DNA of 64,000 nt, taken from assembly GCF_036237275.1 (NCBI RefSeq), contig NZ_CP108352.1, forward strand, positions 4,464,001 to 4,528,000, given 5' to 3'. A model generated the notes under the pieces. That model was not told the origin of the DNA, did not search any database, and worked only from the letters and a program-made list of their open reading frames with translations. This DNA comes from Streptomyces sp. NBC_01353. GTDB taxonomy: Bacteria; Actinomycetota; Actinomycetes; Streptomycetales; Streptomycetaceae. The position numbers were made by a program, and so were the translations under genes. Positions 4,472 to 37,236 of the stretch are shown here, piece after piece. Numbering within the stretch: the stretch's first letter is position 1; each line of letters begins with the position of its first letter.

Positions 4472-4969
4472 CTACAACTCCTTGAAGTGGTCGAACGGTT
4501 CGCGGCAGGCGGTGCAGCGGCGCAGCGCCTTGCATGCGGTGGAGGAGAACCGGCTGAGCAGTTCGGTGTCGGTGGAGCCGCAGTTCGGGCAGCGGATCGC
4601 CAGGGTGAGGGCGACGGGTCCTCCGGCGGGGCCCTGGGGGCGGGGTGGGGCGATGCCGAACTCGGTGAGTTTGCGCCGTCCTTCGTCGCTGATGTCGTCC
4701 GTCGACCAGGCGGGTGCGAGGACGGTGACGACGGTGACTTCGGGCACGCCGTGCTGATGCAGCGCGTGCTCGATGTCGCTGGACATCGCTTCGATGGCGG
4801 GGCAGCCGGTGTACGTGGGGGTCAGCTCGACCTCGACGCGGCCCGGGCCGAGGATCTGGACGCCGCGCAGGACGCCGAGTTCCCCGAGGGTGAGGACGGG
4901 CAGCTCGGGGTCGGGGACGGCGCCGGCGATCCGGCTCAGCTCCTGCTCCAGGTCCGTCATGGTCACCAT
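4472..4969 (-). CDS. paaD: Phenylacetyl-CoA epoxidase maturation/assembly subunit PaaD
   Basis: This 165-residue protein has a DUF59 (MIP18-type) domain, seen in AVPDPELPVLTLGELGVL and PTYTGCPAIEAM, followed by a C-terminal cysteine-rich zinc-ribbon-like tail (CPNCGSTDTELL, later TACKALRRCTACREPFDHF). PaaD is needed for epoxidase activity and is thought to help assemble the iron-sulfur centre of PaaE. Two starts are possible, ATG at 4969 or ATG at 4960. I chose the first because its ATGGTGA overlaps the paaC stop codon. It is the fourth gene of the paa operon. Confidence 0.93.
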   Translation of the reverse strand: MVTMTDLEQELSRIAGAVPDPELPVLTLGELGVLRGVQILGPGRVEVELTPTYTGCPAIEAMSSDIEHALHQHGVPEVTVVTVLAPAWSTDDISDEGRRKLTEFGIAPPRPQGPAGGPVALTLAIRCPNCGSTDTELLSRFSSTACKALRRCTACREPFDHFKEL

Positions 4970-5688
4970 GTCGCCCCCGGGTGGCTGCGGTGCAGGTGCT
5001 GCATCTCGGCGAGCATCCGGCCGAAGGGCTCGGTGTGCAGGCCCTGCCGGCCGGCTCCCGCGGTCCAGGCGCCGGTGCGCGGTCCGCTCGGGACGGTGAG
5101 GGTGGCCTTTTCGAGGACGGTGGTGACGGAGTCGAGCCAGGCGCTCTGCAGGGCTTCGTGGTCGACGTCGAGGCCGTCGACGGGCTGGAACAGCTCGCCG
5201 GTGTAGCGCCAGAGCGCGTTGCAGGCCCGCTGCATCCGGTCGTGGCTCTCGGGGGTGCCGTCGCCGAGACGCAGGGTCCAGTGCTCGGCGTGGTCCTGGT
5301 GGTAGGCGACTTCCTTGACGGCTTTCGCCGCGAGTCCGCTCAGGGGTCCGCCGCCGGTCGCCAACTGGCCGTAGAGGAGCCGCTGGTAGGTGGAGAAGTA
5401 GAGCTGGCGGGCGATGGTGTGGGCGAAGTCGCCGTTGGGCTGCTCGACCAGCTGGGTGTTGCGGAAGGCCCGTTCCTCGCGGAGGTAAGCCAGCTCGTCC
5501 TCGTCGCCGACGAGGGAGAGCAGGATGCGTGCCTGGCCGAGCAGGTCGAGCGCGATGTTGGCGAGCGCGACGTCCTCCTCCAGCACGGGCGCGTTGCCGG
5601 CCCACTCCCCCAGGCGGTGGGAGAGGACGAGGGCGTCGTCTCCGAGGGCGAGGGCTGCGGTCGCGGTGGCGGCGGTCTGCGCGGTCAC
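4963..5688 (-). CDS. paaC: Phenylacetyl-CoA epoxidase structural subunit PaaC
   Basis: This is a 241-residue, all-helical ferritin-like protein that pairs with PaaA to form the epoxidase core but does not hold the active di-iron centre. Recognisable segments are ALGDDALVLSHRLGEW at the N-terminus, NIALDLLGQARILL, and the AYHQDHAEHWTLRLGDGT helix. The length matches the family. It starts with GTG, whose last two bases are shared with the paaB stop (GTGA). Its own stop overlaps the paaD start, showing coupled translation within the operon. Confidence 0.95.
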   Translation of the reverse strand: MTAQTAATATAALALGDDALVLSHRLGEWAGNAPVLEEDVALANIALDLLGQARILLSLVGDEDELAYLREERAFRNTQLVEQPNGDFAHTIARQLYFSTYQRLLYGQLATGGGPLSGLAAKAVKEVAYHQDHAEHWTLRLGDGTPESHDRMQRACNALWRYTGELFQPVDGLDVDHEALQSAWLDSVTTVLEKATLTVPSGPRTGAWTAGAGRQGLHTEPFGRMLAEMQHLHRSHPGATW

Positions 5689-5972
5689 AGGTGCTTCACT
5701 CCCTCGGGGATCTCGTAGAAGGTCGGGTGGCGGTAGGGCTTGTCCGCCGACGGTTCGAAGAAGGGGTCCTTCTCGTCGGGCGAGGAGGCGGTGATCGCGG
5801 CGGAGGGGATCACCCAGATCGAGACGCCTTCGCTGCGGCGGGTGTACAGGTCGCGGGCGTTGCGCAGGGCCATCTCGGCGTCCGGCGCGTGGAGGCTGCC
5901 CGCGTGGGTGTGGGACAGTCCGCGGCGCGAGCGCACGAACACCTCCCACAGGGGCCATCCGTCGGTGGTCAT
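5685..5972 (-). CDS. paaB: Phenylacetyl-CoA epoxidase subunit PaaB
   Basis: This is a 95-residue protein with the conserved opening [20 protein letters not shown], in which the oxygenase-associated small subunit is easily recognised. The helix [16 protein letters not shown] and the closing [16 protein letters not shown] also match. PaaB bridges PaaAC heterodimers and is required for activity. It starts at ATG overlapping the paaA stop (ATGA), and its stop overlaps the paaC GTG. It is the second gene of the paa operon. Confidence 0.95.
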
Positions 5973-7000
5973 GCGCCTGCCTCCCCGTGCTTCTGCTGCT
6001 GTGTGTGCTTGTCGGCGTATGCCGCGGCGGCTTCCCTGACCCAGGCGCCGTCCTCGTGGGCCTGGCGGCGCTTGTCGAGCCGCTGTTCGTTGCAGGGGCC
6101 GTTGCCCTTGAGGACGTCCCAGAACTCGGCCCAGTCGATGGCACCGAAGTCGTAGTGCCCGCGCTCCTCGTTCCAGCTCAGGTCCGGGTCGGGGAGGGTG
6201 AGCCCGAGGGCTTCGGCCTGCGGGACGGCGATGTCGACGAAGCGCTGGCGCAGCTCGTCGTTGGAGTGGCGCTTGATCTTCCAGGCCATCGCCTGGGCGG
6301 TGTGGGTGGACTCGTCGTCCGGGGGGCCGAACATCATCAGGGAGGGCCACCACCAGCGGTCCACCGCGTCCTGGGCCATGGCGTGCTGGGCCTCGGTGCC
6401 GCGGGAGAGGGCGAGCAGGGCTTCGTAGCCCTGGCGCTGGTGGAAGGACTCCTCCTTGCACACGCGGACCATCGCGCGGGCGTACGGGCCGTAGGAGCAG
6501 CGGCAGAGCGGGACCTGGTTGGTGATGGCGGCGCCGTCCACGAGCCAGCCGATCGCGCCGACGTCGGCCCAGGTCAGCGTGGGGTAGTTGAAGATCGAGG
6601 AGTACTTCTGGCGGCCGGAGTGGAGCTTGTCGAGGAGCTCGTCGCGGCTGGTGCCGAGGGTCTCCGCCGCGCTGTACAGGTACAGCCCGTGGCCGGCTTC
6701 GTCCTGGACCTTGGCCATGAGGATCGCCTTGCGGCGCAGCGAGGGCGCGCGGGTGATCCAGTTGGCCTCGGGCTGCATTCCGATGATCTCGGAGTGTGCG
6801 TGCTGCGCGATCTGGCGGACGAGCGACGCGCGATAGGCGTCGGGCATCCAGTCGCGTGGCTCGATGCGCTCGTCGGCGGCGACGGCGGCGTCGAACACCG
6901 CCTCGTAGGCGGCCTGGGTCGCCGCCGTGGCCGCGTCCCGCACGGACTGTGCGTCCTGTGCGTCCGCGGTCACCGCTGTCGCTGACGTCCCTGTGGTCAT
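5969..7000 (-). CDS. paaA: Phenylacetyl-CoA epoxidase catalytic subunit PaaA
   Basis: This 343-residue protein is the di-iron oxygenase that epoxidises the aromatic ring of phenylacetyl-CoA. Predicted iron ligands are visible as Glu71, Glu101-x2-His104 (QDEAGHG) and Glu184-x2-His187 (KEESFHQ). The motif [15 protein letters not shown] also matches PaaA. The first 30 residues are an Ala/Thr-rich extension longer than in enterobacterial PaaA. It is the promoter-proximal gene of paaABCDE. The start is ATG, 10 bp from a TetR-type palindrome at 7011-7028, which is likely the operator for the whole operon. Confidence 0.97.
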
Positions 7001-7010
7001 TGGATCCCCT

Positions 7011-7028
7011 ACCGACCGATCGTTCGGT
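7011..7028. promoter_or_regulatory. TetR-type operator, copy A (paaA promoter)
   Basis: ACCGACCGATCGTTCGGT is an 18-bp palindrome with one mismatched pair, placed immediately upstream of paaA. Its reverse complement recurs with 17 of 18 matches at 11645-11662 (between paaN and paaH) and with 16 of 18 at 14654-14671 (upstream of the first E1/E2 operon). The likely ligand-responsive repressor is the TetR-family protein at 13348-13941. Corynebacterial PaaR, also a TetR protein, is reported to use a related CG-phased palindrome. Confidence 0.75.
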
Positions 7029-7073
7029 TGAATGACTTCAATGGTCGGTCGGCGGCCCGTATGGTGTCAACCC

Positions 7074-7082
7074 TGTGGATAA
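7074..7082 (-). promoter_or_regulatory. DnaA-box-like 9-mer
   Basis: Read on the minus strand this is TTATCCACA, the canonical DnaA box. It sits in the gap between the divergent paaA and DUF5819 genes, 46 bp from operator copy A. An isolated box may titrate DnaA, act in regulation, or be fortuitous. Confidence 0.35.
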
Positions 7083-7113
7083 CTGCGGTGTACGGATCGG
7101 GGATCGGGGCGGG

Positions 7114-7842
7114 ATGGACTCGTACGACGACGCGGGCGCGCGCGAGGCGCGCCCAGCCACCGGACCAGGGCCCGACACGGGCGCCGGGATCGCCTCGCTC
7201 TCGCTTCCGTACCAGGTCGTCGCGGCCGTCGCGCTCGCCGCCGTCGGCGTCTTTGCCCTGGTCCATCTCGCGATGGTGTTTCTGCACGTCGCGCCGTCGA
7301 ACACGCTGACCAAGCAGCACGGAGCGGTCGTCGACGACTGGATATATCCCGAGTTCGAGCAGAACTGGAAGCTCTTCGCGCCCAACCCGCTCCAGCAGAA
7401 CAACGCGGTCCAGGTCCGCGCCGAGGTCGCCGCCGCCGACGGCTCCCGGCGCACCACCGACTGGATCGATCTGACCGCGCAGGACACCGAGGCCATCCGC
7501 GGCAGCCTCCTCCCCAGCCACACGGAACAGAACGAGCTCCGCCGGGCGTGGGACTTCTACCTGAACACCCACACCGAGGGTCATCGGCCCGAGGGCCTGC
7601 GCGGCCGGCTCTCCGAGAGCTACGTCCGCCGGATCGTCATGCTCCGCCTCGACGGGCAGCGCCTCGACGGCACGGTGGAGCGGATCCAGCTGCGCTCCAC
7701 CGTTCGCGCCGTCCCGGCCCCGTCGTGGAGCACCGAGAAGACCGCCACGGACCCCGTCCACCGGGAGTTCCCGTGGTGGAAGGTGACCGCCGCCGATCTG
7801 CCCGGCGGAGTTCAGGACGACCGTACGGAGGCGGCCCGGTGA
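7114..7842 (+). CDS. DUF5819 family membrane protein
   Basis: This 242-residue protein has one N-terminal membrane segment (VVAAVALAAVGVFALVHLAM, about residues 31-50) followed by a soluble domain containing WIYPEFEQNWKLFAPNP and FYLNTHTEGHRPEGLRGRL, both typical of DUF5819. The function of the family is unknown. It is regularly found beside HTTM proteins, and here its TGA overlaps the GTG of the HTTM gene by 4 nt, suggesting the two products work together at the membrane. The start is uncertain: ATG at 7114 is preferred, GTG at 7075 is an in-frame alternative that adds 13 residues and overlaps a DnaA-like box. Confidence 0.8.
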   Translation: MDSYDDAGAREARPATGPGPDTGAGIASLSLPYQVVAAVALAAVGVFALVHLAMVFLHVAPSNTLTKQHGAVVDDWIYPEFEQNWKLFAPNPLQQNNAVQVRAEVAAADGSRRTTDWIDLTAQDTEAIRGSLLPSHTEQNELRRAWDFYLNTHTEGHRPEGLRGRLSESYVRRIVMLRLDGQRLDGTVERIQLRSTVRAVPAPSWSTEKTATDPVHREFPWWKVTAADLPGGVQDDRTEAAR

Positions 7843-9194
7843 ACCAGCCCTCCCCGAACCAGCCCTTCCCGAACCAGGTCCCCGCGAACCAGGTCCCAGA
7901 GACCCGCGCCCCCGAGAGCCAGGCCCCCGTGCACCAGACCCCCGGCGACCACGCGGCCCCGGGTGGGGACGCCGCTCCCGGCCTGCCCCGCGAGCCCTTC
8001 GACCGGCGGCTCGCGCGGGCCATCCAGCGGGTCACGGCCAGTGCCCTCGGGCCGTACCAGAGCGCGATCATCCGGATCGGCTTCTCGCTGACCTGGCTGC
8101 TCTTCCTGCTCCGCGAGCTGCCCCACCGTCATGAGTTGTACGGCCCCGACAGCCCCTGGTCGTGGGAGATGGGCCGGCAGCTGATCGCCGACAACAGCGC
8201 GTTCACGGTGCTGATGTGGTCGGACGGCGGGCTCTGGTTCGAGCTCGTCTACGCGATCGCCGTGCTCTCCGCCGCCCTGCTGCTGGTCGGCTGGCGCACC
8301 CGCGCCATGTCGGTGGTCTTCATGGTCGGCGTGCTGTCCCTGCAGAATCGCTCCGTCTTCGTGGGCGACGGCGGCGACAACGTCATCCACCTCGCCGCGA
8401 TCTACCTCGTCCTGACCCGCTGCGGCCAGGTCTGGTCCCTGGACGCCCGCCGGGCGGCCCGCGAGGCCCGCGACGCGACCGACGGTCTGCCGGCCCGTCG
8501 CGACGTCGTCGGACCGCTGTTGTGGGTGGTGCTCGGCGGCTTCCTGCTCGCCGCCACGTACTTCCTCGGTGCCACCGGCTCCACATGGCTGCTGGTGCTG
8601 ATGTGGGTGCTGTGGCTGGCGCAGGCGCTGTGGTGGGCCGTGTGCCGCTACGCCCCGGGCGAGCCGCGCACCCTCCTCGACGTCCTCGCCAATCTCGCCC
8701 ACAACGCGACGCTCGTCGTGATCATGGCCGAGGTCTGTCTGATCTATGCCACGGCCGGCTGGTACAAGATCCAGGGTTCGCGCTGGCAGGACGGCACCGC
8801 GCTGTACTACCCGCTCCAGCTGGACTACTTCGCTCCGTGGCCCGCGCTCTCCGACTTCCTCGGCTCCAGCGGTGTGATGGTGATGCTGCTGACGTACGGC
8901 ACCGTGATGATCCAGGTCGCGTTCCCCTTCGCCCTGTTCAACCGCAAGGTCAAGAACGTCCTGCTGGTGGCGATGATGCTGGAGCACGCCGGGATCGCGG
9001 TGCTGCTCGGGCTTCCCCTGTTCTCGCTCGCGATGATCTCCGCGGACGCGGTGTTCCTGCCGACGGCGTTTCTGGTCTGGCTGGCCGCGCGGGTGGGGCT
9101 CGGCCGGGAGCGGCTGATGTCCCGTACGCGTGGGAAGGTGCCCGACCAGCGCCGTTCGGGTGAGGAACCCGCCGCCCGTACCCTCGTGGGGTGA
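7839..9194 (+). CDS. HTTM domain multipass membrane protein
   Basis: This is a 451-residue integral membrane protein. The first 50 residues are Pro/Gln/Asn-rich with imperfect NQ-V/F-P repeats. After that come roughly eight to ten hydrophobic segments, for example FSLTWLLFLLRELPH, AIAVLSAALLLVGW and LLWVVLGGFLLAATYFLG. The region with FVGDGGDNVIHLAAIYLVL and AGWYKIQGSRWQDGTALYY is characteristic of HTTM proteins, the membrane domain related to vitamin K-dependent gamma-glutamyl carboxylase. The actual substrate in Streptomyces is unknown. It is coupled at both ends, overlapping DUF5819 by 4 nt and the SpoU gene by 4 nt. Confidence 0.88.
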   Translation: MNQPSPNQPFPNQVPANQVPETRAPESQAPVHQTPGDHAAPGGDAAPGLPREPFDRRLARAIQRVTASALGPYQSAIIRIGFSLTWLLFLLRELPHRHELYGPDSPWSWEMGRQLIADNSAFTVLMWSDGGLWFELVYAIAVLSAALLLVGWRTRAMSVVFMVGVLSLQNRSVFVGDGGDNVIHLAAIYLVLTRCGQVWSLDARRAAREARDATDGLPARRDVVGPLLWVVLGGFLLAATYFLGATGSTWLLVLMWVLWLAQALWWAVCRYAPGEPRTLLDVLANLAHNATLVVIMAEVCLIYATAGWYKIQGSRWQDGTALYYPLQLDYFAPWPALSDFLGSSGVMVMLLTYGTVMIQVAFPFALFNRKVKNVLLVAMMLEHAGIAVLLGLPLFSLAMISADAVFLPTAFLVWLAARVGLGRERLMSRTRGKVPDQRRSGEEPAARTLVG

Positions 9195-9871
9195 GCACCG
9201 CAGAACAGTCCGAGCCGATCCAGTACGACGAGGGGTACGCCCCCGAGGTCGGTGTCGGGCCGCATCCGCTGCCCTGGCCGGACGGCGAGGGCTACGACCC
9301 TGAGCTGCTGGCGGGCGGGGACCGGCGCAATGTCGTCGACCGGTACCGGTACTGGACGCGCGAGGCGGTCGTCGCCGACCTGGACACCCGTCGGCACGAT
9401 TTCCATGTCGCGGTGGAGAACTGGGGCCACGACTTCAACATCGGGTCGGTGGTGCGGACCGCGAACGCGTTCCTGGCGAAGGAGATCCACATCGTGGGTC
9501 GGCGGCGCTGGAACCGGCGCGGGGCGATGGTCACGGACCGCTACCAGCATGTGCGCCACCACCCGGACACCGAGTCGCTGACCGCGTGGGCCGCGGCCGA
9601 GGGCCTGCCGATCATCGGGATCGACAATCTGCCGGGCGCGGTGCCGCTGGAGCGGACCGTGCTGCCGCGGCGCTGTGTGCTGCTCTTCGGCCAGGAAGGG
9701 CCGGGTCTGACCGAGGAGGCCCGCAAGCACGCGGAGATGGTCTGCTCGATCGCCCAGTTCGGTTCGACCCGGTCGATCAACGCGGGGGCCGCGGCCGCGA
9801 TCGCGATGCACGCCTGGGTGCAGCGGTACGCCGAGATCGACGGTCCGGCAGGGCTCGCGGAGGCCCCGTAG
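9191..9871 (+). CDS. SpoU/TrmH-family RNA 2'-O-methyltransferase
   Basis: This 226-residue protein carries the three SPOUT motifs: NIGSVVRTANAF (motif 1), LLFGQEGPGLTEEA (motif 2) and GSTRSINAGAAAAIAMHAW (motif 3). Together they form the deep trefoil knot that binds S-adenosylmethionine. Enzymes of this class methylate the ribose 2'-OH of a tRNA or rRNA nucleotide; the target is not predictable from the sequence. There is a 60-residue acidic N-terminal extension. The GTG start overlaps the HTTM stop, so it is the third gene of a coupled trio. It converges with paaN, 20 bp away. Confidence 0.9.
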   Translation: MSTAEQSEPIQYDEGYAPEVGVGPHPLPWPDGEGYDPELLAGGDRRNVVDRYRYWTREAVVADLDTRRHDFHVAVENWGHDFNIGSVVRTANAFLAKEIHIVGRRRWNRRGAMVTDRYQHVRHHPDTESLTAWAAAEGLPIIGIDNLPGAVPLERTVLPRRCVLLFGQEGPGLTEEARKHAEMVCSIAQFGSTRSINAGAAAAIAMHAWVQRYAEIDGPAGLAEAP

Positions 9872-9891
9872 GGCCCCCGCGAGACCGTGGC

Positions 9892-11589
9892 TCACGCCTG
9901 GCGGCGGACCTCCACCACCCGGAAGCGGTTGGCGACGAAGGCCGCGTCGCACAGGGCCGCGTTCGCGGCCGGGTTTCCGCCGGAGCCGTGGAAGTCGGAG
10001 AACGCCGCCGTCTGGTTGACGTAGACCCCGCCCGTCAGGTTCAGCGAGAGCTGGGCCGACTCCTCCAGGCAGACCTCCTCCACGGCGCGCTCGGTGTCCG
10101 CCGAGGTGGTGTACGCCCCGACGGTCATCGCACCCTTCTCGCGGACCGTGCGGCGCAGCAGCTCGAGGGCGTCGGCGGTCGAGTCGACGGAGACGGCGAA
10201 GGACACCGGGCCGAAGCACTCGGAGAAGTACGCGGCGTCCGCGTCGGGCTTGGAGCCGTCCAGCTTCACGATGACCGGCGTACGGACGACGGCGCCCGGG
10301 AAGTCCGGGTTCGCCACCTCGCGGGAGGCCAGCGCCACCTCGCCCAGGCCGGCCGCGGCCTCCAGGCGCGCCTTCACGTCCGGGTTGACCAGCGCGCCGA
10401 GCAGGGCGTTCGCCCGGGCGTCGTCGCCCAGCAGGCCGCCCATCGCCGCCGCGAGATCGGCGACCACCTCGTCGTACGACTTGGTGCCCGCGTCGGTGGT
10501 GATGCCGTCGCGGGGGATCAGCAGGTTCTGCGGGGTCGTGCACATCTGGCCGCTGTACAGGGACAGGGAGAAGGCCAGGTTGGAGAGCATCCCCTTGTAG
10601 TCGTCGGTGGAGTCGACGACGACCGTGTTGACGCCCGCCTTCTCCGTGTAGACCTGCGCCTGGCGGGCGTTGGCCTCCAGCCAGTCGCCGAAGGCGGTGG
10701 AGCCGGTGTAGTCGATGATCCGGATCTCGGGGCGGACGGCCAGGGTCTTGGCGATGCCCTCGCCGGGCCGCTCGACGGCCAGCGCGACCAGGTTCGGGTC
10801 GAAGCCGGCCTCGGCGAGGACCTCGCGGGCCACGCGGACCGTGAGCGCCAGCGGGAGGACGGCCCGGGGGTGAGGCTTGACCAGGACCGGGTTGCCGGTG
10901 GCCAGGGAGGCGAACAGGCCGGGGTAGCCGTTCCAGGTCGGGAAGGTGTTGCAGCCGATCATCAGCGCGATGCCGCGGGCGACCGGGGTGAACTCCTTGG
11001 TCAGCTCCAGCGGGTCCCGCTTGCCCTGCGGCTTGGACCACTGGGCGGCGCCGCCGGGGGTGCGGGTCTGCTCCGCGTACGCGTACGCCACCGCCTCCAG
11101 GCCGCGGTCCTGCGCGTGCGGGCCGCCGGCCTGGAACGCCATCATGAAGGCCTGGCCGCTGGTGTGCATCACCGCGTGCGCGAACTCGTGGGTGCGGGCG
11201 GAGATCCGGGCGAGGATCTCGATACAGACCAGGGCGCGGGCCTCGGGTCCGGCCTCGCGCCAGGCGCCCATGCCGGCGCGCATCGCGGGCAGCAGGACGT
11301 CGATGTCGGCGTGCGGGTACTCCACGCCGAGCGCCGGGCCGTACGGCGAGATCTCGCCACCGGTCCAGCCGTCCGTGCCGGGCTGGTCCAGCTCGAAGCG
11401 GGTGTCGAGCAGCGCCTTGTACGCGTCGAGACCGGCGGCGGCGTCCAGCGAGCCGTTCTCGCCGTAGGCCTTCGGGTGCTCGGGGTGGGGCGACCAGTAG
11501 GCACGGGTGCGGATCGTGTCGAGAGCCTGGTCGAGTGTGGACCGGTGCTTCTCGGCCAGAGCGTCGGTGGTCAGCTGAGCGGCGGCCAT
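9892..11589 (-). CDS. paaN: Phenylacetic acid degradation aldehyde dehydrogenase PaaN
   Basis: This is a 565-residue aldehyde dehydrogenase of the PaaN type. The NAD-binding core has PVLVKPHPRAVLPLALTVR and IIDYTGSTAFGDWLEANA, and the probable catalytic cysteine lies in SLYSGQMCTTPQNLLIPRDG. It lacks the C-terminal MaoC hydratase domain of E. coli PaaZ, so only oxidation of the ring-opened semialdehyde would be performed here. The N-terminal 130 residues are family-specific. The start ATG at 11589 has AAGGAG upstream. It is divergent from paaH, and operator copy B lies in the gap. Confidence 0.9.
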   Translation of the reverse strand: MAAAQLTTDALAEKHRSTLDQALDTIRTRAYWSPHPEHPKAYGENGSLDAAAGLDAYKALLDTRFELDQPGTDGWTGGEISPYGPALGVEYPHADIDVLLPAMRAGMGAWREAGPEARALVCIEILARISARTHEFAHAVMHTSGQAFMMAFQAGGPHAQDRGLEAVAYAYAEQTRTPGGAAQWSKPQGKRDPLELTKEFTPVARGIALMIGCNTFPTWNGYPGLFASLATGNPVLVKPHPRAVLPLALTVRVAREVLAEAGFDPNLVALAVERPGEGIAKTLAVRPEIRIIDYTGSTAFGDWLEANARQAQVYTEKAGVNTVVVDSTDDYKGMLSNLAFSLSLYSGQMCTTPQNLLIPRDGITTDAGTKSYDEVVADLAAAMGGLLGDDARANALLGALVNPDVKARLEAAAGLGEVALASREVANPDFPGAVVRTPVIVKLDGSKPDADAAYFSECFGPVSFAVSVDSTADALELLRRTVREKGAMTVGAYTTSADTERAVEEVCLEESAQLSLNLTGGVYVNQTAAFSDFHGSGGNPAANAALCDAAFVANRFRVVEVRRQA

Positions 11590-11644
11590 GGCAGGACCAA
11601 CTCCTTGTTGAGCTGGGCAGGAAGGGACGGACAGAGTTAGAGTA

Positions 11645-11662
11645 ACCGAACGATCGGTCGGG
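11645..11662. promoter_or_regulatory. TetR-type operator, copy B (paaN/paaH)
   Basis: ACCGAACGATCGGTCGGG matches the reverse complement of the paaA-proximal palindrome at 17 of 18 positions. It lies between the divergent paaN and paaH-tetR transcription units, so one bound dimer could control both. The tetR gene is last in the rightward unit, which implies autoregulation. Confidence 0.75.
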
Positions 11663-11682
11663 ACAAGGGGGTCTGTCGAAGC

Positions 11683-11691
11683 TGTGGACAA
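11683..11691 (-). promoter_or_regulatory. DnaA-box-like 9-mer
   Basis: On the minus strand this reads TTGTCCACA, the preferred Streptomyces DnaA box as I recall it. It lies 20 bp after operator copy B and 22 bp before the paaH start. Its role is unproven. Confidence 0.35.
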
Positions 11692-11713
11692 CCCATCGGG
11701 GAGGATCAGTCGC

Positions 11714-13351
11714 ATGACCGCCAATGTGAGCGATTCCGCGCCGGACGCCGTCTCGGGTTCCGCGCCGAAGCCCGCGCCGGTTCCCGTGCCCGAGCCCGGC
11801 ACCGACGCCATCGACCGGAGCCGGACCGTCGCCGTCGTCGGCACGGGGACCATGGGCCAGGGAATCGCGCAGGTCGCCCTGGTCGCCGGGCATCGCGTCC
11901 GGCTCTACGACAGCGCCCCCGGCCGGGCCGGGGAGGCCGTGACCGCCCTCGCCGCCCGCCTGGACCGCCTCGTCGAGAAGGGGCGGATGGACCGGGCCGA
12001 GCGCGACGGAGCCGTCGCGCGGCTCCACGCCGCGGCCGAGCTGACCGAACTGGCCGACGCCGCGCTCGTCGTCGAGGCGATCGTCGAGCACCTCCCGGTC
12101 AAGCAGCAGCTCTTCGGCGAGCTCGAGAAGATCGTCGGCGACGACACCCTGCTCGCCACCAACACCTCCTCCCTCTCCGTCACCGCGATCGCGGGAGGCC
12201 TGCGGCTGCCCGGCCGGTTCGTCGGGCTGCACTTCTTCAACCCGGCCCCGCTGCTCCCCCTCGTCGAGGTCGTCAGCGGCTTCGCCACCGACGAATCCGC
12301 CGCCACGCGCGCGTACGAGACCGCGAAGAGCTGGGGCAAGACGCCGGTGCGCTGCGCCGACACCCCCGGGTTCATCGTCAACCGGATAGCCCGGCCGTTC
12401 TACGCGGAGGCGCTGCGGGTGTACGAGGAGGGCGCGGCCGACCCCGCCACCATCGACGCGGTGCTGCGCGAGTGCGGCGGCTTCCGGATGGGTCCCTTCG
12501 AGCTGACCGACCTCATCGGCCAGGACGTCAACGAGGCCGTCACCCGGTCCGTGTGGGAGTCCTTCTACCAGGACCCGAAGTTCACGCCGTCCCTCGCCCA
12601 GCGGCGCCTGGTCGAGTCGGCGCGGCTCGGCCGCAAGTCGGGGCAGGGCTGGTACCCGTACGGGGACGGCGCGGCGGCCCCCGAGCCGCACACCGCGCCC
12701 CCGGCCGAGCCGCCGGCCCACGTGACGGTCCAGGGCGACGTGGAGCACATGCGCGACCTGGTGAAGCGGATCGAGGAAGCCGCGATCCCGGTCCGCTTCG
12801 GGGACGACGCGGTGCCCGGCTACCCGGGCTGGATCGAGCTGCCGAGCGGCACGCGGCTCTTCCTCGCCGACGGGACATCGGCCGACGACGCCGAGATGCC
12901 GGTCATCCACATCGACCTGGCGCTGAACTTCTCCACCTGCGAGCGGATCGCGCTCGCGCCCTCGGCCACCGTGGACGACAGCGCCCTCCAGGAGGCGATC
13001 GGCCTCTTCCAGGCGGCGGGCAAGGCGGTCAGCGTCATCCGCGACATCCCCGGCATGATCGTCGCCCGTACGGTCGCGATGCTCGCCGACTTCGCCTTCG
13101 ACGCCGCCGCGCGCTCGGTGGCCGACGGCGACGACATCGACACCGCGATGCGGCTCGGCGTGAACTACCCGCGCGGGCCCCTCGCCTGGGGCGAGGAGCT
13201 GGGCGCCGGCTGGGTCCTCGAGATGCTGTCGAACCTCCACGAGGAGTATCCGACGGGCCGCTACGCCCCCTCGCAGGCGTTGCTCCGCCGGGCCGCCGCC
13301 GAGCGGGTCGCCGCCGAGGCGGCCGCGGCCGCACAGGAGGCGACGGCATGA
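11714..13351 (+). CDS. paaH: 3-hydroxyacyl-CoA dehydrogenase PaaH
   Basis: This 545-residue enzyme oxidises a 3-hydroxyacyl-CoA with NAD+, here probably 3-hydroxyadipyl-CoA of the phenylacetate pathway. The Rossmann motif VAVVGTGTMGQGIAQVAL follows an Ala/Pro-rich 35-residue leader. The catalytic segment GRFVGLHFFNPAPLLPLVEVV and FIVNRIARPFYAEALRVYEEG are typical. A second dehydrogenase C-terminal domain (RDIPGMIVARTVAMLADFAFD) makes it the long PaaH form. The ATG at 11714 with GAGGAT upstream is preferred over GTG at 11684. Its stop overlaps the TetR start by 4 nt. Confidence 0.92.
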   Translation: MTANVSDSAPDAVSGSAPKPAPVPVPEPGTDAIDRSRTVAVVGTGTMGQGIAQVALVAGHRVRLYDSAPGRAGEAVTALAARLDRLVEKGRMDRAERDGAVARLHAAAELTELADAALVVEAIVEHLPVKQQLFGELEKIVGDDTLLATNTSSLSVTAIAGGLRLPGRFVGLHFFNPAPLLPLVEVVSGFATDESAATRAYETAKSWGKTPVRCADTPGFIVNRIARPFYAEALRVYEEGAADPATIDAVLRECGGFRMGPFELTDLIGQDVNEAVTRSVWESFYQDPKFTPSLAQRRLVESARLGRKSGQGWYPYGDGAAAPEPHTAPPAEPPAHVTVQGDVEHMRDLVKRIEEAAIPVRFGDDAVPGYPGWIELPSGTRLFLADGTSADDAEMPVIHIDLALNFSTCERIALAPSATVDDSALQEAIGLFQAAGKAVSVIRDIPGMIVARTVAMLADFAFDAAARSVADGDDIDTAMRLGVNYPRGPLAWGEELGAGWVLEMLSNLHEEYPTGRYAPSQALLRRAAAERVAAEAAAAAQEATA

Positions 13352-13941
13352 CCACCGCGAAGCGCGACACCTACACCCCCGAGACGCTGCTCTCCGTCGC
13401 CGTACGCGTCTTCAACGAGCGCGGCTACGACGGCACGTCCATGGAGCACCTCTCCAAGGCCGCGGGGATCTCCAAGTCCTCGATATACCACCATGTCGCG
13501 GGCAAGGAGGAGCTGCTGCGGCGGGCCGTCAGCCGGGCCATCGACGGGCTCTTCGCGATCCTCGACGAGCCGGGCGCGGGGCGTGGGCGGGCCATCGAGC
13601 GGGTCGAGTACGTCACCCGGCGCACCGTCGAGGTGCTGATGGCGGAGCTTCCGTACGTGACGCTGCTGCTGCGGGTCCGGGGCAACACCGACACCGAGCG
13701 GTGGGCGATGGAGCGGCGCCGGGAGTTCGACCAGAGGGTGGCCGAGCTGCTGAAGGCGGCCGTGGCCGACGGTGACCTGAGGGCCGATGTGGACATCAAG
13801 CTGGCCACGCGACTGCTCTTCGGCATGATCAACTCGCTGGTGGAGTGGTACCGGCCGCTGCCGGGCGCCGACGCGGTGCGCGAGCAGCTCGCCGACACCG
13901 TCGTCCATCTCGCGTTCGACGGGCTGCGTACGGCCCGCTGA
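13348..13941 (+). CDS. TetR-family regulator, probable PaaR
   Basis: This is a 197-residue TetR/AcrR repressor. The DNA-binding domain covers residues about 12-58, with the helix-turn-helix TSMEHLSKAAGISKSSIYHH. The C-terminal two thirds form the ligand and dimer domain. It has a strong AGGAGG site and overlaps paaH by 4 nt, so it is cotranscribed with a catabolic gene of the pathway. The repeated palindrome at 7011, 11645 and 14654 is the obvious candidate operator, and phenylacetyl-CoA is the likely inducer by analogy with known PaaR proteins. Both operator and ligand are inferred. Confidence 0.85.
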   Translation: MTTAKRDTYTPETLLSVAVRVFNERGYDGTSMEHLSKAAGISKSSIYHHVAGKEELLRRAVSRAIDGLFAILDEPGAGRGRAIERVEYVTRRTVEVLMAELPYVTLLLRVRGNTDTERWAMERRREFDQRVAELLKAAVADGDLRADVDIKLATRLLFGMINSLVEWYRPLPGADAVREQLADTVVHLAFDGLRTAR

Positions 13942-13970
13942 AGCCGCCCGGGGCCTGCTCGGTGGTTCGT

Positions 13971-14004
13971 TGTACGGGCCGCCGCTCAGCGGCCCCGTAC
14001 GGCT
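13971..14004. terminator. Bidirectional hairpin between tetR and bkdR
   Basis: An inverted repeat with arms GTACGGGCCGC and GCGGCCCCGTAC (one bulged base) lies between the convergent tetR and bkdR genes. No T-run follows, as is common for Streptomyces terminators. Confidence 0.6.
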
Positions 14005-14006
14005 TC

Positions 14007-14552
14007 TCAGTGGCCCGGGTCGAGGTCCGTCTCCTCGAAGACCAGCAGCGTGCGGGTGGAGAGCACCTCGGGGATCGACTGGAGCTTGGTGAGCACCAGC
14101 TCGCGCAGGGTCCGGTTGTCGGGGGTGTGGACCAGCAGCAGGACGTCGAAGTCCCCGCTGACCAGCGCGATGTGCGCGGCCCCCGGCAGGGCCTGGAGCT
14201 GCTCGCGCACGGTGCGCCAGGAGTTCTGGACGATCTTGAGCGTGATGTAGGCGGAGGCGCCCTGGCCCGCGCGCTCGTGGTTGACCCGCGCGCTGAAGCC
14301 GCGGATCACGCCGTCGTCGATGAGCCGGTTGATCCGCGCGTAGGCGTTGGCCCTGGACACATGCACCCGCTCGGCCACGGAGCGTATCGAGGCGCGACCG
14401 TCCGTCTGGAGGATGCGCAGGATGTCGCGGTCGATGGAGTCCAGCGGGCGCGCCGGAGGGCCCTGGGGCACCTGTGACGCCCCGCCGGGCGCCGTGCCCG
14501 GCGGCTGGGCGAGCTCCCGCTCCCAGCTCTCGGCCATTTGTTCATCCGCCAT
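14007..14552 (-). CDS. bkdR: Lrp/AsnC-family regulator BkdR
   Basis: This is a 181-residue Lrp-type regulator. The first 40 residues are a Pro/Gly-rich leader. The winged HTH is at residues about 41-95 (LDSIDRDILRILQTDGRASI, then VSRANAYARINRLIDDGVI). The RAM effector domain follows, with ALVSGDFDVLLLVHTPDNRTL. Lrp proteins bind amino acids or 2-oxoacids. The gene is divergent from the first E1/E2 operon, the arrangement described for bkdR in S. coelicolor, so it is the expected local regulator of that operon. The ATG at 14552 has GGGGGGA upstream; ATG at 14582 is an in-frame alternative. Confidence 0.87.
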   Translation of the reverse strand: MADEQMAESWERELAQPPGTAPGGASQVPQGPPARPLDSIDRDILRILQTDGRASIRSVAERVHVSRANAYARINRLIDDGVIRGFSARVNHERAGQGASAYITLKIVQNSWRTVREQLQALPGAAHIALVSGDFDVLLLVHTPDNRTLRELVLTKLQSIPEVLSTRTLLVFEETDLDPGH

Positions 14553-14597
14553 GTCCCCCCGCCTCTCTCCCATGGACGACATGCTCCTATCCCAGGC

Positions 14598-14619
14598 TGT
14601 GGAGAACCGATTGTCCACA
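14598..14619. promoter_or_regulatory. Inverted pair of DnaA-box-like 9-mers / possible BkdR operator
   Basis: TGTGGAGAA (14598-14606) and TTGTCCACA (14611-14619) are in opposite orientation and share arms CTGTGGA and TCCACAG. The second is an exact Streptomyces-type DnaA box. Because the pair is symmetric and sits in the bkdR-bkdA divergent promoter region, it could equally be an operator for BkdR. Confidence 0.4.
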
Positions 14620-14653
14620 GGCTGAGGGTGCCTGTAGCCAAAATGCCTCCACG

Positions 14654-14671
14654 ACCGAACAATCGGTAGGT
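14654..14671. promoter_or_regulatory. TetR-type operator, copy C (first E1/E2 operon)
   Basis: ACCGAACAATCGGTAGGT matches the reverse complement of copy A at 16 of 18 positions and keeps the ACCGAAC and ATCGGT half-site cores. It lies 68 bp upstream of the chosen E1-alpha start, in the bkdR/bkdA divergent region. This links the 2-oxoacid dehydrogenase operon to the phenylacetate regulon. Confidence 0.65.
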
Positions 14672-14738: not shown

Positions 14739-15890
14739 TTGCAACAGCGCAGTTCGACAGTCCAAGAGCCGCCCGGTGCCACCCCTGGCTACCGGCCCAC
14801 CCCGCCCCCGGCGTGGAAGCCGCGTACCGACCCGGCCCCCCTGCTGCCCGACGCCGAGCCGTTCCGTGTCCTCGGCACGGACGCGGTTGCCGCCGCCGAC
14901 CCCGAGCTGCTGCGGCGGCTCTACGCGGAGCTGGTGCGCGGTCGGCGGTACAACGCGCAGGCCACGGCCCTGACCAAGCAGGGCCGGCTCGCCGTGTATC
15001 CGTCGACGACCGGCCAGGAGGCCTGCGAGGTCGCGGCCGCGCTGGCCCTGGAGGACCGGGACTGGCTGTTCCCCTCGTACCGCGACACCCTCGCGGCCGT
15101 CGTCCGCGGCCTGGACCCGGTCCAGGCGCTGACGCTGCTGCGCGGCGACTGGCACACCGGGTACGACCCGCGTGAGCACCGCATAGCGCCGCTGTCCACG
15201 CCTCTCGCCACCCAGCTCCCGCACGCGGTGGGCCTGGCCCACGCCGCCCGGCTCAAGGGCGACGACGTGGTCGCGCTCGCCATGGTCGGCGACGGCGGCA
15301 CCAGCGAGGGCGACTTCCACGAGGCGCTGAACTTCGCGGCCGTCTGGCAGGCCCCCGTGGTCTTCCTGGTGCAGAACAACGGCTTCGCGATCTCCGTGCC
15401 GCTCGCCAAGCAGACCGCGGCTCCCTCCCTGGCCCACAAGGCCGTCGGATACGGAATGCCCGGCCGGCTCGTCGACGGCAATGACGCCGTCGCCGTCCAC
15501 CAGGTGCTCACCGAGGCCGTGGCACGAGCGCGTCGGGGCGGCGGACCGACGCTGATCGAGGCGATCACGTACCGCATCGAGGCCCACACCAACGCCGACG
15601 ACGCCACCCGCTACCGCGGCGACAGCGAGGTCGAGGCGTGGCGGGCACACGACCCGATCCTGCTCCTGGAGCGGGAGTTGACGGAGCGCGGGATGCTCGA
15701 CGAGGACGGAAAGCGGGCCGCGGCCGAGGCCGCCGAGACGATGGCGGCGGCGCTGCGCGAGCGGATGAACGCCGAGCCGGTCCTCGACCCGATGGATCTC
15801 TTCGCGCACGTCTACGCCGAGCAGACCACCCAGCTGCGCGAGCAGGCCGCGCAGCTGCGGGCCGAGCTCGACGCCGAGAGCGAGGCGTGA
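14739..15890 (+). CDS. bkdA: 2-Oxoacid dehydrogenase E1 component, alpha subunit (bkd operon 1)
   Basis: This is the thiamine diphosphate-binding alpha subunit of a BCKDH/PDH-type E1 heterotetramer, about 383 residues. The ThDP motif runs from GDGGTSEGDFHEAL to VVFLVQNN. The helix ending in ALALEDRDWLFPSYRDTLAA and the loop YRIEAHTNADDATRYRGD are also typical; the IEAH segment differs from the MGAH in the second operon's E1-alpha. TTG at 14739 is chosen because GAGGAGG lies 8 nt upstream; GTG at 14730 is an alternative. It is the first gene of an alpha-beta-E2 operon with 1-3 nt overlaps. The substrate could be branched-chain oxoacids, pyruvate or an aromatic oxoacid. Confidence 0.88.
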   Translation: MQQRSSTVQEPPGATPGYRPTPPPAWKPRTDPAPLLPDAEPFRVLGTDAVAAADPELLRRLYAELVRGRRYNAQATALTKQGRLAVYPSTTGQEACEVAAALALEDRDWLFPSYRDTLAAVVRGLDPVQALTLLRGDWHTGYDPREHRIAPLSTPLATQLPHAVGLAHAARLKGDDVVALAMVGDGGTSEGDFHEALNFAAVWQAPVVFLVQNNGFAISVPLAKQTAAPSLAHKAVGYGMPGRLVDGNDAVAVHQVLTEAVARARRGGGPTLIEAITYRIEAHTNADDATRYRGDSEVEAWRAHDPILLLERELTERGMLDEDGKRAAAEAAETMAAALRERMNAEPVLDPMDLFAHVYAEQTTQLREQAAQLRAELDAESEA

Positions 15891-16915
15891 TGACGACCCA
15901 GGTGGCGGCCAAGCCCGCCAAGCCCGCGAAGCCGGCCACGATGGCGCAGGCGCTGCAGCGGGCCATGCGGGACGCGATGGCCGAGGACCCGACCGTCCAC
16001 GTCATGGGCGAGGACGTCGGCACGCTCGGCGGTGTCTTTCGCGTCACCGACGGCCTCGCCAAGGAGTTCGGCGAGGACCGCTGTACGGACACCCCGCTGG
16101 CCGAGGCCGGCATCCTGGGCACCGCCGTCGGCATGGCGATGTACGGGCTGCGGCCGGTCGTGGAGATGCAGTTCGACGCCTTCGCCTATCCGGCGTTCGA
16201 GCAGCTGATCAGCCATGTCTCGCGGATGCGGAACCGCACGCGCGGCGCGATGCCGATGCCGATGGTGATCCGGGTGCCGTACGGCGGCGGGATCGGCGGC
16301 GTCGAGCACCACAGCGACTCCTCCGAGGCGTACTACATGGCGACCCCGGGTCTCCATGTCGTCACCCCGGCCACCGTCGAGGACGCGTACGGGCTGCTGC
16401 GGGCGGCGATCGCCTCCGACGACCCGGTCGTCTTCCTGGAGCCCAAGCGGCTCTACTGGTCGAAGTCCGACTGGTCGCCCGAGGCGCCCACGCAGGTGGA
16501 GCCGATCGGCAAGGCCGTCGTACGGCGCCGCGGCACCAGCGCCACGCTGATCACGTACGGGCCGTCCGTGCCGGTCTGCCTGGAGGCCGCCGAGGCCGCC
16601 CAGGCCGAGGGCTGGGACCTGGAGGTCATCGACCTGCGCTCGCTGGTGCCGTTCGACGACGAGACCGTCAGCGCGTCGGTGCGGCGCACCGGACGAGCGG
16701 TGGTCGTGCACGAGTCGACCGGCTTCGGCGGGCCGGGCGGGGAGATCGCCGCCCGCGTGACCGAGCGCTGCTTCCACCACCTGGAGGCACCCGTGCTGCG
16801 GGTCGCCGGGTTCGACATCCCGTACCCGCCGCCGATGCTGGAGCGGCACCATCTGCCGGGCGTGGACCGGGTGCTCGACGCGGTGGCGCGGCTGCAGTGG
16901 GAGGTGGGGAGCTGA
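15890..16915 (+). CDS. bkdB: 2-Oxoacid dehydrogenase E1 component, beta subunit (bkd operon 1)
   Basis: This 341-residue transketolase-type beta subunit pairs with the preceding alpha chain. Conserved segments are VMGEDVGTLGGVFRVTDGLA, RCTDTPLAEAGILGTAVGMA, VIRVPYGGGIGGVEHHSDSS and VVFLEPKRLYW. The C-terminal transketolase domain contains VIDLRSLVPFDDETV. A short Lys/Pro/Ala-rich leader precedes the fold. The ATG shares one base with the E1-alpha stop and its own stop shares one base with the E2 start, so the subunits are translationally coupled, as expected for a stoichiometric complex. Confidence 0.93.
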   Translation: MTTQVAAKPAKPAKPATMAQALQRAMRDAMAEDPTVHVMGEDVGTLGGVFRVTDGLAKEFGEDRCTDTPLAEAGILGTAVGMAMYGLRPVVEMQFDAFAYPAFEQLISHVSRMRNRTRGAMPMPMVIRVPYGGGIGGVEHHSDSSEAYYMATPGLHVVTPATVEDAYGLLRAAIASDDPVVFLEPKRLYWSKSDWSPEAPTQVEPIGKAVVRRRGTSATLITYGPSVPVCLEAAEAAQAEGWDLEVIDLRSLVPFDDETVSASVRRTGRAVVVHESTGFGGPGGEIAARVTERCFHHLEAPVLRVAGFDIPYPPPMLERHHLPGVDRVLDAVARLQWEVGS

Positions 16916-18243
16916 TGGCCCAGGTGCTCGAGTTCAAGCTGCCGGACCTCGGCGAGGGGCTGACCGAGGCGGAGATCGTGCGCTGGCTGGTGAACGTCGG
17001 CGACGTCGTCGCCATCGACCAGCCCGTCGTCGAGGTCGAGACCGCCAAGGCGATGGTCGAGGTGCCGTGCCCCTACGGCGGGGTGGTGACCGCCCGCTTC
17101 GGCGAGGAGGGCACCGAACTGCCCGTCGGCGCACCGCTGCTGACGGTCGCCGTGGGCGGAGCGGAAGCTCCCGGGGCGGCGCCCGCGAAGTCCGGGGCGG
17201 CCGCCGAGGACGCCGAGTCCTCGGAGTACTCCGGCAATGTGCTCGTCGGCTACGGCACGGCGGGGCCGGCGGCGCGCCGGCGCCGCGTCCGCAGGGACAC
17301 CGCCCCGGCGGCCCCCGTCGCCCAGGTGACGGCGCCTGTGAAGCCGGTGCTTCCCGAGGGGCCTGTGCCGGTGATCTCCCCGCTCGTGCGGAAGCTGGCC
17401 CGGGACAAGGGGCTCGATCTGCGCGAGGTGCGCGGATCAGGTCCGGCCGGACTGATTCTGCGGGCCGACGTGGAGTCGGCACTGGCCGCCGCCGAGCGCC
17501 CGGCACCTGCTCCGGCCGCCGCGCCGTCGCCCGTGGCCGTCGCCGCCGTCGGCGTCGGTGAGCGTGTTCCGCTGCGCGGAGTCCGCGGCGCCGTGGCCGA
17601 CAAGCTCTCGCGCAGCCGTACGGAGATCCCGGACGCGACCTGCTGGGTCGACGCCGACGCCACCGAACTCATGACGGCGCGGGCCGCGATGAACGCGGCG
17701 GGTGGGCCGAAGATCTCGCTGCTCGCGCTCCTCGCCCGGATCTGCACCCATGCCCTGGCCCGCTTCCCGGAGCTCAACTCCACGGTGGACACGGCGGCCC
17801 GGGAGATCGTCCGGCTGCCGTCGGTGCACCTCGGGTTCGCGGCGCAGACCCCGCGCGGACTCGTCGTCCCGGTGGTCAGGGACGCGGGCACGCGGACGGC
17901 GGAGTCGCTGGCGGAGGAGTTCGCGCGGCTGACCGAGTCCGCCCGGCAGGGGACGCTGACGCCGGCGGACCTGACCGGCGGGACGTTCACGCTGAACAAC
18001 TACGGGGTGTTCGGGGTCGACGGATCGACGCCGATCATCAACCACCCGGAGGCGGCGATGCTCGGGGTGGGCCGGATCATTCCCAAGCCGTGGGTCCACG
18101 AGGGAGAGCTGGCCGTCCGCCAGGTCGTCCAGCTGTCGCTGACCTTCGACCACCGCGTCTGCGACGGCGGCACCGCGGGCGGGTTCCTGCGCTACGTCGC
18201 GGACTGTGTCGAGCACCCCGCGGTCCTGCTCCGCACGCTCTGA
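16915..18243 (+). CDS. bkdC: Dihydrolipoamide acyltransferase E2 (bkd operon 1)
   Basis: This 442-residue E2 has one N-terminal lipoyl domain with the lipoyl-lysine at residue 45 (VEVETAKAMVEVP). It continues with an Ala/Pro/Arg-rich linker, a peripheral subunit-binding domain (VISPLVRKLARDKGLDLREV) and the catalytic acyltransferase domain ending in TFDHRVCDGGTAGGFLRY, which holds the His and Asp of the active site. It transfers the acyl group made by E1 to CoA. No E3 (dihydrolipoamide dehydrogenase) gene is in the window, so E3 must be shared from elsewhere. It is last in the operon and followed by a hairpin at 18264. Confidence 0.93.
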   Translation: MAQVLEFKLPDLGEGLTEAEIVRWLVNVGDVVAIDQPVVEVETAKAMVEVPCPYGGVVTARFGEEGTELPVGAPLLTVAVGGAEAPGAAPAKSGAAAEDAESSEYSGNVLVGYGTAGPAARRRRVRRDTAPAAPVAQVTAPVKPVLPEGPVPVISPLVRKLARDKGLDLREVRGSGPAGLILRADVESALAAAERPAPAPAAAPSPVAVAAVGVGERVPLRGVRGAVADKLSRSRTEIPDATCWVDADATELMTARAAMNAAGGPKISLLALLARICTHALARFPELNSTVDTAAREIVRLPSVHLGFAAQTPRGLVVPVVRDAGTRTAESLAEEFARLTESARQGTLTPADLTGGTFTLNNYGVFGVDGSTPIINHPEAAMLGVGRIIPKPWVHEGELAVRQVVQLSLTFDHRVCDGGTAGGFLRYVADCVEHPAVLLRTL

Positions 18244-36243: not shown

Positions 36244-36245
36244 CC

Positions 36246-37226: not shown

Positions 37227-37236
37227 GGAGAGCATC

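Follow-up and report, generated by a model that had tools for sequence, protein, structure and literature searches.

The window analysed here is a 64,000-nt stretch of Streptomyces sp. NBC_01353 (contig NZ_CP108352.1, positions 4,464,001–4,528,000; genome size 8.57 Mb), which carries genes of phenylacetate degradation (paa), a gene for a TetR-family regulator and an operon encoding the E1-alpha, E1-beta and E2 subunits of a 2-oxoacid dehydrogenase complex. Sequence comparisons indicate that this operon is very probably a member of the regulon of PaaR, the TetR-type regulator of the paa genes: the same operator-like core precedes paa units and E1-alpha and, within the family, is kept before E1-alpha in nearly all genomes that possess PaaR. 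PaaR is already known as a paa repressor in Streptomyces (PMC10933834, in the available text), and the new element here is the E1-alpha operon as its probable target. The first-pass annotation of the window had supposed this link to be undescribed; a literature search, which missed most subscription papers, including Zhao 2015, found no such report.

Operator sites of the window

The sites are given below in window coordinates; the A-type core is ACCGAACAATCGGT, the G-type core is ACCGAACGATCGGT and the combined pattern is ACCGAACRATCGGT.

7011..7028, minus strand: PaaR-type operator 1, before paaA; core 7015–7028, minus-strand ACCGAACGATCGGT; 18-mer ACCGACCGATCGTTCGGT
11645..11662, plus strand: PaaR-type operator 2, between divergent paaN and paaH-tetR; core 11645–11658; 18-mer ACCGAACGATCGGTCGGG
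14654..14671, plus strand: PaaR-type operator 3, before E1-alpha; core 14654–14667, ACCGAACAATCGGT; 18-mer ACCGAACAATCGGTAGGT
14611..14640, plus strand: possible promoter of the E1-alpha operon, TTGTCC–18 bp–TAGCCA, in a partly conserved block

Three 18-bp palindromes had been placed at 7011, 11645 and 14654 by the first-pass annotation, with 17 of 18 and 16 of 18 positions of the second and third identical to the reverse complement of the first and with all three in promoter gaps; these positions and counts were reproduced, and the sites lie 11 bp before the PaaA start, in the paaN/paaH gap and in the gap between an Lrp-type gene and E1-alpha, respectively. The common core comprises 14 bp, ACCGAAC[G/A]ATCGGT, with the G-type form at sites 1 and 2 and the A-type form at site 3, the least symmetric of the three (centre CA, not CG). 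At up to three mismatches, the window contains five matches (strand duplicates of the three places) versus 0.19 expected, and none of 100 shuffled windows reached five; the whole genome contains three copies of the combined pattern, all in these three gaps, versus about 0.05 expected from the base composition of the window.

Site 3 is located 102 bp from the start of the Lrp-type gene and 72 bp from the start of E1-alpha. If the hexamers TTGTCC and TAGCCA form the E1-alpha promoter, site 3 would follow the transcription start closely, as repressor sites commonly do. Upstream of site 3, a second conserved block (TTGTCCAC...TAGCCAAAATG, 14611–14645) may combine the promoter with a binding site of the Lrp-type regulator.

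Conservation of the third site within the family

Two samples were used. The first comprised 121 genomes of the same family, including the genome under study (G000), and was searched for the core pattern, E1-alpha, the second E1-alpha of the window, PaaA and PaaR, with thresholds of 1e-45 for calling PaaR present and 1e-100 for calling E1-alpha absent; the second, referred to as the named loci, comprised 80 Streptomyces loci, the best 80 of 582 relatives and thus all close. The samples overlap (at least five contigs agree in length) and are not independent. The first-pass annotation had proposed conservation of the third site upstream of orthologous E1-alpha genes as a test, and within the family the site was found in every one of the 80 named loci and in 111 of 121 genomes. 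The latter number is composed of 30 genomes from the E1-alpha locus set, 72 with an A-type core paired with an E1-alpha match, seven with further orthologues and two in which E1-alpha was found by tblastn (L080, L081).

The E1-alpha protein was found in 115 of the 121 genomes, and all 30 E1-alpha loci inspected have the exact site upstream. The core pattern is present in 114 genomes, and the same pattern read backwards in none of the 121. The listed core-pattern places number 79 of the A-type and 71 of the G-type; 72 A-type places are situated 57–165 bp before an E1-alpha match, which, together with L059 and L067 from the E1-alpha locus set and with L080 and L081, makes 76 of 79 before E1-alpha, versus 0 of 71 for the G-type. 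The other three A-type places are L077, L078 (repeat array) and L079. Beyond the listed places, seven further E1-alpha orthologues possess the exact site.

The distribution of the site follows that of PaaR closely: PaaR was found in 113 genomes, and the site is present in 111 of these versus none of the eight without PaaR (Fisher p 5e-11, with shared ancestry ignored). In the two genomes with PaaR and without the site, G020 and G001, PaaR is less similar than anywhere else (61% and 56% identity), and with a line drawn post hoc at more than 70% identity the PaaR set and the site set are identical, 111 genomes each. Six of the ten site-less genomes have no E1-alpha (G001, G004, G015, G018, G029, G034), three have only a copy of the paa-embedded clade described below (G020, G031, G038), and the tenth, G010, has an E1-alpha of 65% identity without PaaA, PaaR or the site. 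PaaA is missing in five genomes, none with a site-bearing E1-alpha (G004, G010, G015, G018, G029), and is present without the site in five others (G001, G020, G031, G034, G038).

The window also contains a second E1-alpha–E1-beta–E2 operon (35260–38628), 43, 58 and 39% identical to the first, subunit by subunit, and devoid of the core site. Its E1-alpha was found in 119 of the 121 genomes (missing in G001 and G022), and this near-universal presence makes the joint pattern with PaaR specific to the first E1-alpha.

Among close Streptomyces relatives, conservation extends beyond the site to a wider block. When 59 of the 111 site-bearing upstream regions (39 taken before the site was known or checked and 20 picked from genomes with a known site; G010 excluded) were aligned on the core, the flanks proved to have diverged, at 0.86 bits per base over the 60 positions before the core and 0.62 over the 30 after it; the full score of the core is by construction.

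Genes of the locus and identity of the TetR regulator

The genes of the locus are as follows.

3383..6461, minus strand: paaB, paaC, paaD, paaE; TIGR02157, TIGR02158 and TIGR02159 above cut-off, PaaE (TIGR02160) 417.0, just under 420.8
5969..7000, minus strand: paaA, first gene of paaABCDE; TIGR02156 524 bits, cut-off 280
9892..11589, minus strand: paaN; TIGR02288 955 bits, cut-off 579
11714..13351, plus strand: paaH, 3-hydroxyacyl-CoA dehydrogenase; NF006124 above cut-off, TIGR02279 (PaaH) 611 bits, below 669
13348..13941, plus strand: tetR (= paaR by gene context), TetR-family regulator of 197 aa; TetR_N (PF00440, 58 bits, cut-off 24) and TetR_C_24 above Pfam cut-offs
14007..14552, minus strand: Lrp/AsnC-family regulator, in the position of bkdR (SCO3832) of S. 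coelicolor (naming from the available text of PMC12323332)
14739..15890, plus strand: E1-alpha of 2-oxoacid dehydrogenase (position of bkdA2), TTG start; TIGR03181 430 bits, cut-off 411
15890..16915, plus strand: E1-beta; best models E1-beta, below cut-off (NF006667, 280 of 321 bits)
16915..18243, plus strand: E2 acyltransferase; best models E2, below cut-off (NF008814, 293 of 722 bits)

The true starts of paaB, paaC and paaD lie inside the listed open reading frames (ORFs). Profile searches assigned E1-alpha, E1-beta and E2 to the 2-oxoacid dehydrogenase family; TIGR03181 is a model of pyruvate dehydrogenase E1-alpha and is also matched by the second E1-alpha of the window. The equivalence of the Lrp-type gene and the E1-alpha–E1-beta–E2 genes to those of S. 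coelicolor is based on gene content.

The paaH stop and the tetR start overlap (ATGA), in line with the cotranscription noted in the first-pass annotation, and by its gene context the TetR gene is PaaR. A class-wide search found the TetR orthologue in 71 of 246 genomes, including 22 of the same genus; among 20 of the 49 loci from other families, 19 have it no more than 10 kb from a paaA, paaK or paaN match, the single exception (L127) being located on a 16-kb contig. Judged from positions, a site with up to two mismatches to ACCGAACRATCGGT clearly precedes a paa gene in 12 of these 20 loci; in three (L127, L133, L137), the site possibly precedes a paa gene or only tetR, and in five (L124, L128, L130, L135, L138) no such site was found before a paa gene. 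Among the named loci, all 46 that include PaaA with the gap upstream of it carry the exact G-type core before PaaA, and all 77 that include PaaN carry it in the PaaN gap. A paaH match is absent in 16 of the 77 named loci with paaN and tetR; the paaN gap there runs directly to tetR, which suggests autoregulation of PaaR. The earlier proposal of a single TetR protein for paaA, paaN/paaH and the E1-alpha operon thus gains support at the sequence level, both from the paa context of the regulator and from the way site 3 follows the presence of PaaR.

Divergently from paaA, across site 1, two plus-strand ORFs are located at 7114–9194; site 1 is 86 bp before the first, taken to start at 7114, which has no NCBIfam match and is present in all 68 paaN-containing named loci whose sequence extends that far. 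In 21 named loci with enough sequence and no adjoining paaA (three of which end nearby), the exact core is found at the site-1 position in eight and not in 13; its retention in the eight indicates that the ORF pair may also be a PaaR target.

Other copies of the core

A fourth candidate site, a one-mismatch copy of ACCGAACGATCGGT, is located 48 bp before paaK (genome positions 7893716–7893729; L068 9717–9730), 3.4 Mb from the locus in the window; the downstream gene matches TIGR02155 with 713 bits (cut-off 646). Beyond the three sites, the genome has two places with up to one mismatch to ACCGAACGATCGGT, this one and a small-ORF start at 3121176 (L005 1501), which was rejected as an operator, being inside the start of the small ORF. 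As in L005, core-like letters are found near 3900–4350 in L261, L262, L272 and L273 inside the start of this conserved small ORF (TDRSV peptide), beside a helicase-like gene; in L261 and L262, a WhiB-like gene then follows (both gene labels by eye). These letters are probably a coding coincidence.

The assumption that every exact core is a PaaR site was rejected: 29 of the 71 listed G-type places lack a listed A-type neighbour on the same contig at a distance of up to 12 kb. Eighteen of the 29 were examined, with neighbouring genes labelled by eye or from recall; eight precede paaK, four are at the small-ORF start, two are upstream of another TetR-like gene and four have no clear target. In the two relatives with the other TetR-like gene (L264 3961, L267 4111), which appears ScbR-like by eye, the exact core is about 140–200 bp before it. 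In a paa locus of another family (L137 2208–2221), an exact A-type core precedes a gene labelled by eye as transporter-like.

Related E1-alpha genes and other families

Related E1-alpha–E1-beta–E2 genes are found near paaN, a paaH-like gene, paaA and its neighbours in the genomes G107, G089, G031 and G020. In a tree of 19 E1-alpha rows, these paa-embedded copies form a clade with the E1-alpha of G038; the site-bearing E1-alpha proteins make up the neighbouring clade, which also holds the site-less extra copies L086 and L088, and the second E1-alpha is placed far off on a long branch. The extra E1-alpha–E1-beta–E2 copies L086 (G056) and L088 (G096) have an E1-alpha of 67–68% identity and no close site before it, and their stretches contain no match to the paa query proteins.

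Outside the family, the third site was not found before E1-alpha: none of 40 E1-alpha upstream regions (40 of 56 other-family genomes with an E1-alpha match; 20 with PaaR and 20 without) contains a site with up to one mismatch, and the 41st (L138) contains none with up to two. The best regions (L151, L152, L154, L167) have two mismatches, a level reached by seven of 200 base-shuffled upstream regions, two of which reached one mismatch. Thus, as far as these 40 regions show, the link between the operator and E1-alpha is a property of this family, and the E1-alpha proteins of the other families (57–68% identity among the 40) are possibly not orthologous. E1-alpha–E1-beta–E2 genes with an Lrp gene are located near PaaR in G323 and G276, and about 15 kb away in G147; no close site was found directly before E1-alpha in these three genomes.

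Expression data and the proposed role of the complex

Published data on S. rimosus (PMC10612213, Table 2, in the available text) show that the corresponding genes change together. In strain HP126 versus the wild type ATCC 10970, the log2 changes are +5.0, +4.6 and +4.7 for E1-alpha, E1-beta and E2 (SRIMR7_19995, 20000, 20005), +4.1, +3.5 and +3.3 for PaaE, PaaD and PaaC (19935, 19940, 19945) and +3.1 for the unlinked PaaK (35410); in HP126 dv3 versus HP126, they are −2.9, −2.7 and −2.7, −1.4, −1.0 and 0, and −1.3, respectively. The tag numbers, in steps of five, appear to fit the gene order of the window. The co-moving genes are those predicted here from the four sites, though the co-movement may have a cause other than PaaR; the table contains genes chosen by its authors, who read them as two separate pathways, and covers two strain comparisons.

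The following mechanism, taken as a whole, seems to us fairly probable. PaaR would repress its own unit, paaH-paaR, together with paaA–E, paaN, the unlinked paaK and the E1-alpha–E1-beta–E2 operon at 14739. It would do so from the 14-bp operator, over each promoter or a short way downstream of it, and would leave the operators as phenylacetyl-CoA builds up. Phenylalanine would be converted to phenylpyruvate and the latter, by the E1-alpha–E1-beta–E2 complex, to phenylacetyl-CoA, thereby joining the paa pathway with no need for either free phenylacetate or PaaK; the product of the complex would be the inducer of its own operon, closing a loop in which the Lrp-type gene would add a second level of control. 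Three elements are inferred: that PaaR binds site 3, that it represses E1-alpha and not the Lrp gene, and that phenylpyruvate is the substrate. Within the family, an operator before a "branched-chain" set suggests that the set feeds phenylalanine-derived material into phenylacetate breakdown. For the complex, oxidation of phenylpyruvate to phenylacetyl-CoA is the likely role, judged from regulation and gene neighbourhood; control by phenylacetyl-CoA is most easily understood if the dehydrogenase makes this compound from phenylpyruvate, as has been proposed for PglB/PglC (PMC7089894). The stronger version, in which bkdR-bkdA2B2C2 is mainly a dedicated phenylpyruvate dehydrogenase making the PaaR inducer, in a self-amplifying loop under the double control of PaaR and the Lrp-type regulator, is evenly balanced in our estimation.

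Several observations weigh against this mechanism. The four paa-embedded copies have no site with up to two mismatches directly before E1-alpha, and a TetR gene was found in the examined stretch of only one of them (L085). G010 keeps an E1-alpha without PaaA, PaaR or the site; the enzyme can thus have another use. G001 has PaaA and PaaR (56%) but no such E1-alpha. PaaR without the site also occurs outside the family, in 20 genomes; in only three of 23 other-family genomes with PaaR and E1-alpha matches are the two no more than 20 kb apart, and the 20 of these 23 that were inspected have no site before E1-alpha. In the S. rimosus table, a branched-chain aminotransferase is raised by 1.0 (PMC10612213); the operon is named branched-chain in S. 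coelicolor (bkdA2B2C2, SCO3831–3829; PMC12323332); and in S. albus valine activated one branched-chain 2-oxoacid dehydrogenase (BCDH), "BCDH II", the operon not being stated in the available text, while deletion of bkdR made no major difference to valine-degradation genes (PMC8176718).

According to the first rival explanation, the operon is indeed controlled by PaaR, yet encodes a true branched-chain 2-oxoacid dehydrogenase, and PaaR links branched-chain with aromatic catabolism as a supply of acyl-CoA. The S. coelicolor annotation, the adjoining Lrp-type bkdR, the reading of the S. rimosus authors and the effect of valine in S. albus speak for it; on the other side, the other E1-alpha is near-universal whereas the site-bearing one follows PaaR, E1-alpha–E1-beta–E2 genes are repeatedly found beside paa genes, and in S. 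rimosus valine dehydrogenase is down (−1.7 in HP126 versus the wild type) while the complex is up (PMC10612213). We regard this explanation as unlikely, though a serious competitor.

Since site 3 lies in a gap common to the Lrp gene and E1-alpha, it could instead serve the divergent Lrp-type gene, with PaaR acting on E1-alpha only via bkdR; the promoter-like hexamers that seem to face E1-alpha, 14–43 bp upstream of site 3, and the large change of E1-alpha together with paa in S. rimosus (PMC10612213) make this very unlikely. Still less credit is due to a different TetR-family protein with a similar operator binding site 3: operators of this family resemble one another, and an exact G-type core does occur upstream of a different TetR-like gene (labelled by eye) in two relatives, but the site tracks PaaR closely in the 121 genomes and nearly all listed A-type sites (76 of 79) precede E1-alpha. 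The weakest proposal, a chance resemblance in a conserved promoter, draws on the wider block kept in close relatives and is hardly tenable, given a core kept while the flanks diverged in 59 more diverse genomes, the excess of genome-wide copies over expectation and the absence of the backwards pattern.

Streptomyces is known to have two so-called branched-chain dehydrogenase gene sets. Should one of them be under PaaR control and produce phenylacetyl-CoA, the duplication would be explained and a route from phenylalanine into the paa pathway would be given; bkd knock-outs and the feeding of antibiotic precursors (pristinamycin I, polyketides) would then read differently.

Comparison with known systems

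The sources compared here were available in part, and what is said of their contents applies to the available text. Repression of paa by a TetR-type PaaR was described in S. pristinaespiralis (Zhao 2015, as cited in PMC10933834 and PMC7089894). That PaaR resembles the regulator of the window in type and in its putative site, AACGA-N4-TCGGT, which shares the TCGGT half-site; its targets as cited are paa genes, with no 2-oxoacid dehydrogenase named. The PaaR proteins of Thermus thermophilus (TTHA0973) and Burkholderia cenocepacia also belong to the TetR family, bind 14–15 bp inverted repeats before paa operons and are released by phenylacetyl-CoA (PMC6651687, PMC9493321); they differ in operator details, and no E1/E2 operon is among their cited targets. 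According to a genomic survey, the local regulator of paa loci in Actinomycetes, including Streptomyces, is predominantly PaaR; the terms "2-oxo" and "phenylpyruvate" are absent from its main text (PMC13186573).

With bkdR-bkdA2B2C2 (SCO3832–SCO3829), one of the two BCDH loci of S. coelicolor, the operon of the window shares the adjoining Lrp-type gene; that locus is considered branched-chain, and control by PaaR is unmentioned in the text available (PMC12323332). PglB/PglC of phenylglycine biosynthesis, although located in an antibiotic cluster and likened here by description, correspond to the role proposed above, as a pyruvate-dehydrogenase-like complex suggested to convert phenylpyruvate to phenylacetyl-CoA (PMC7089894).

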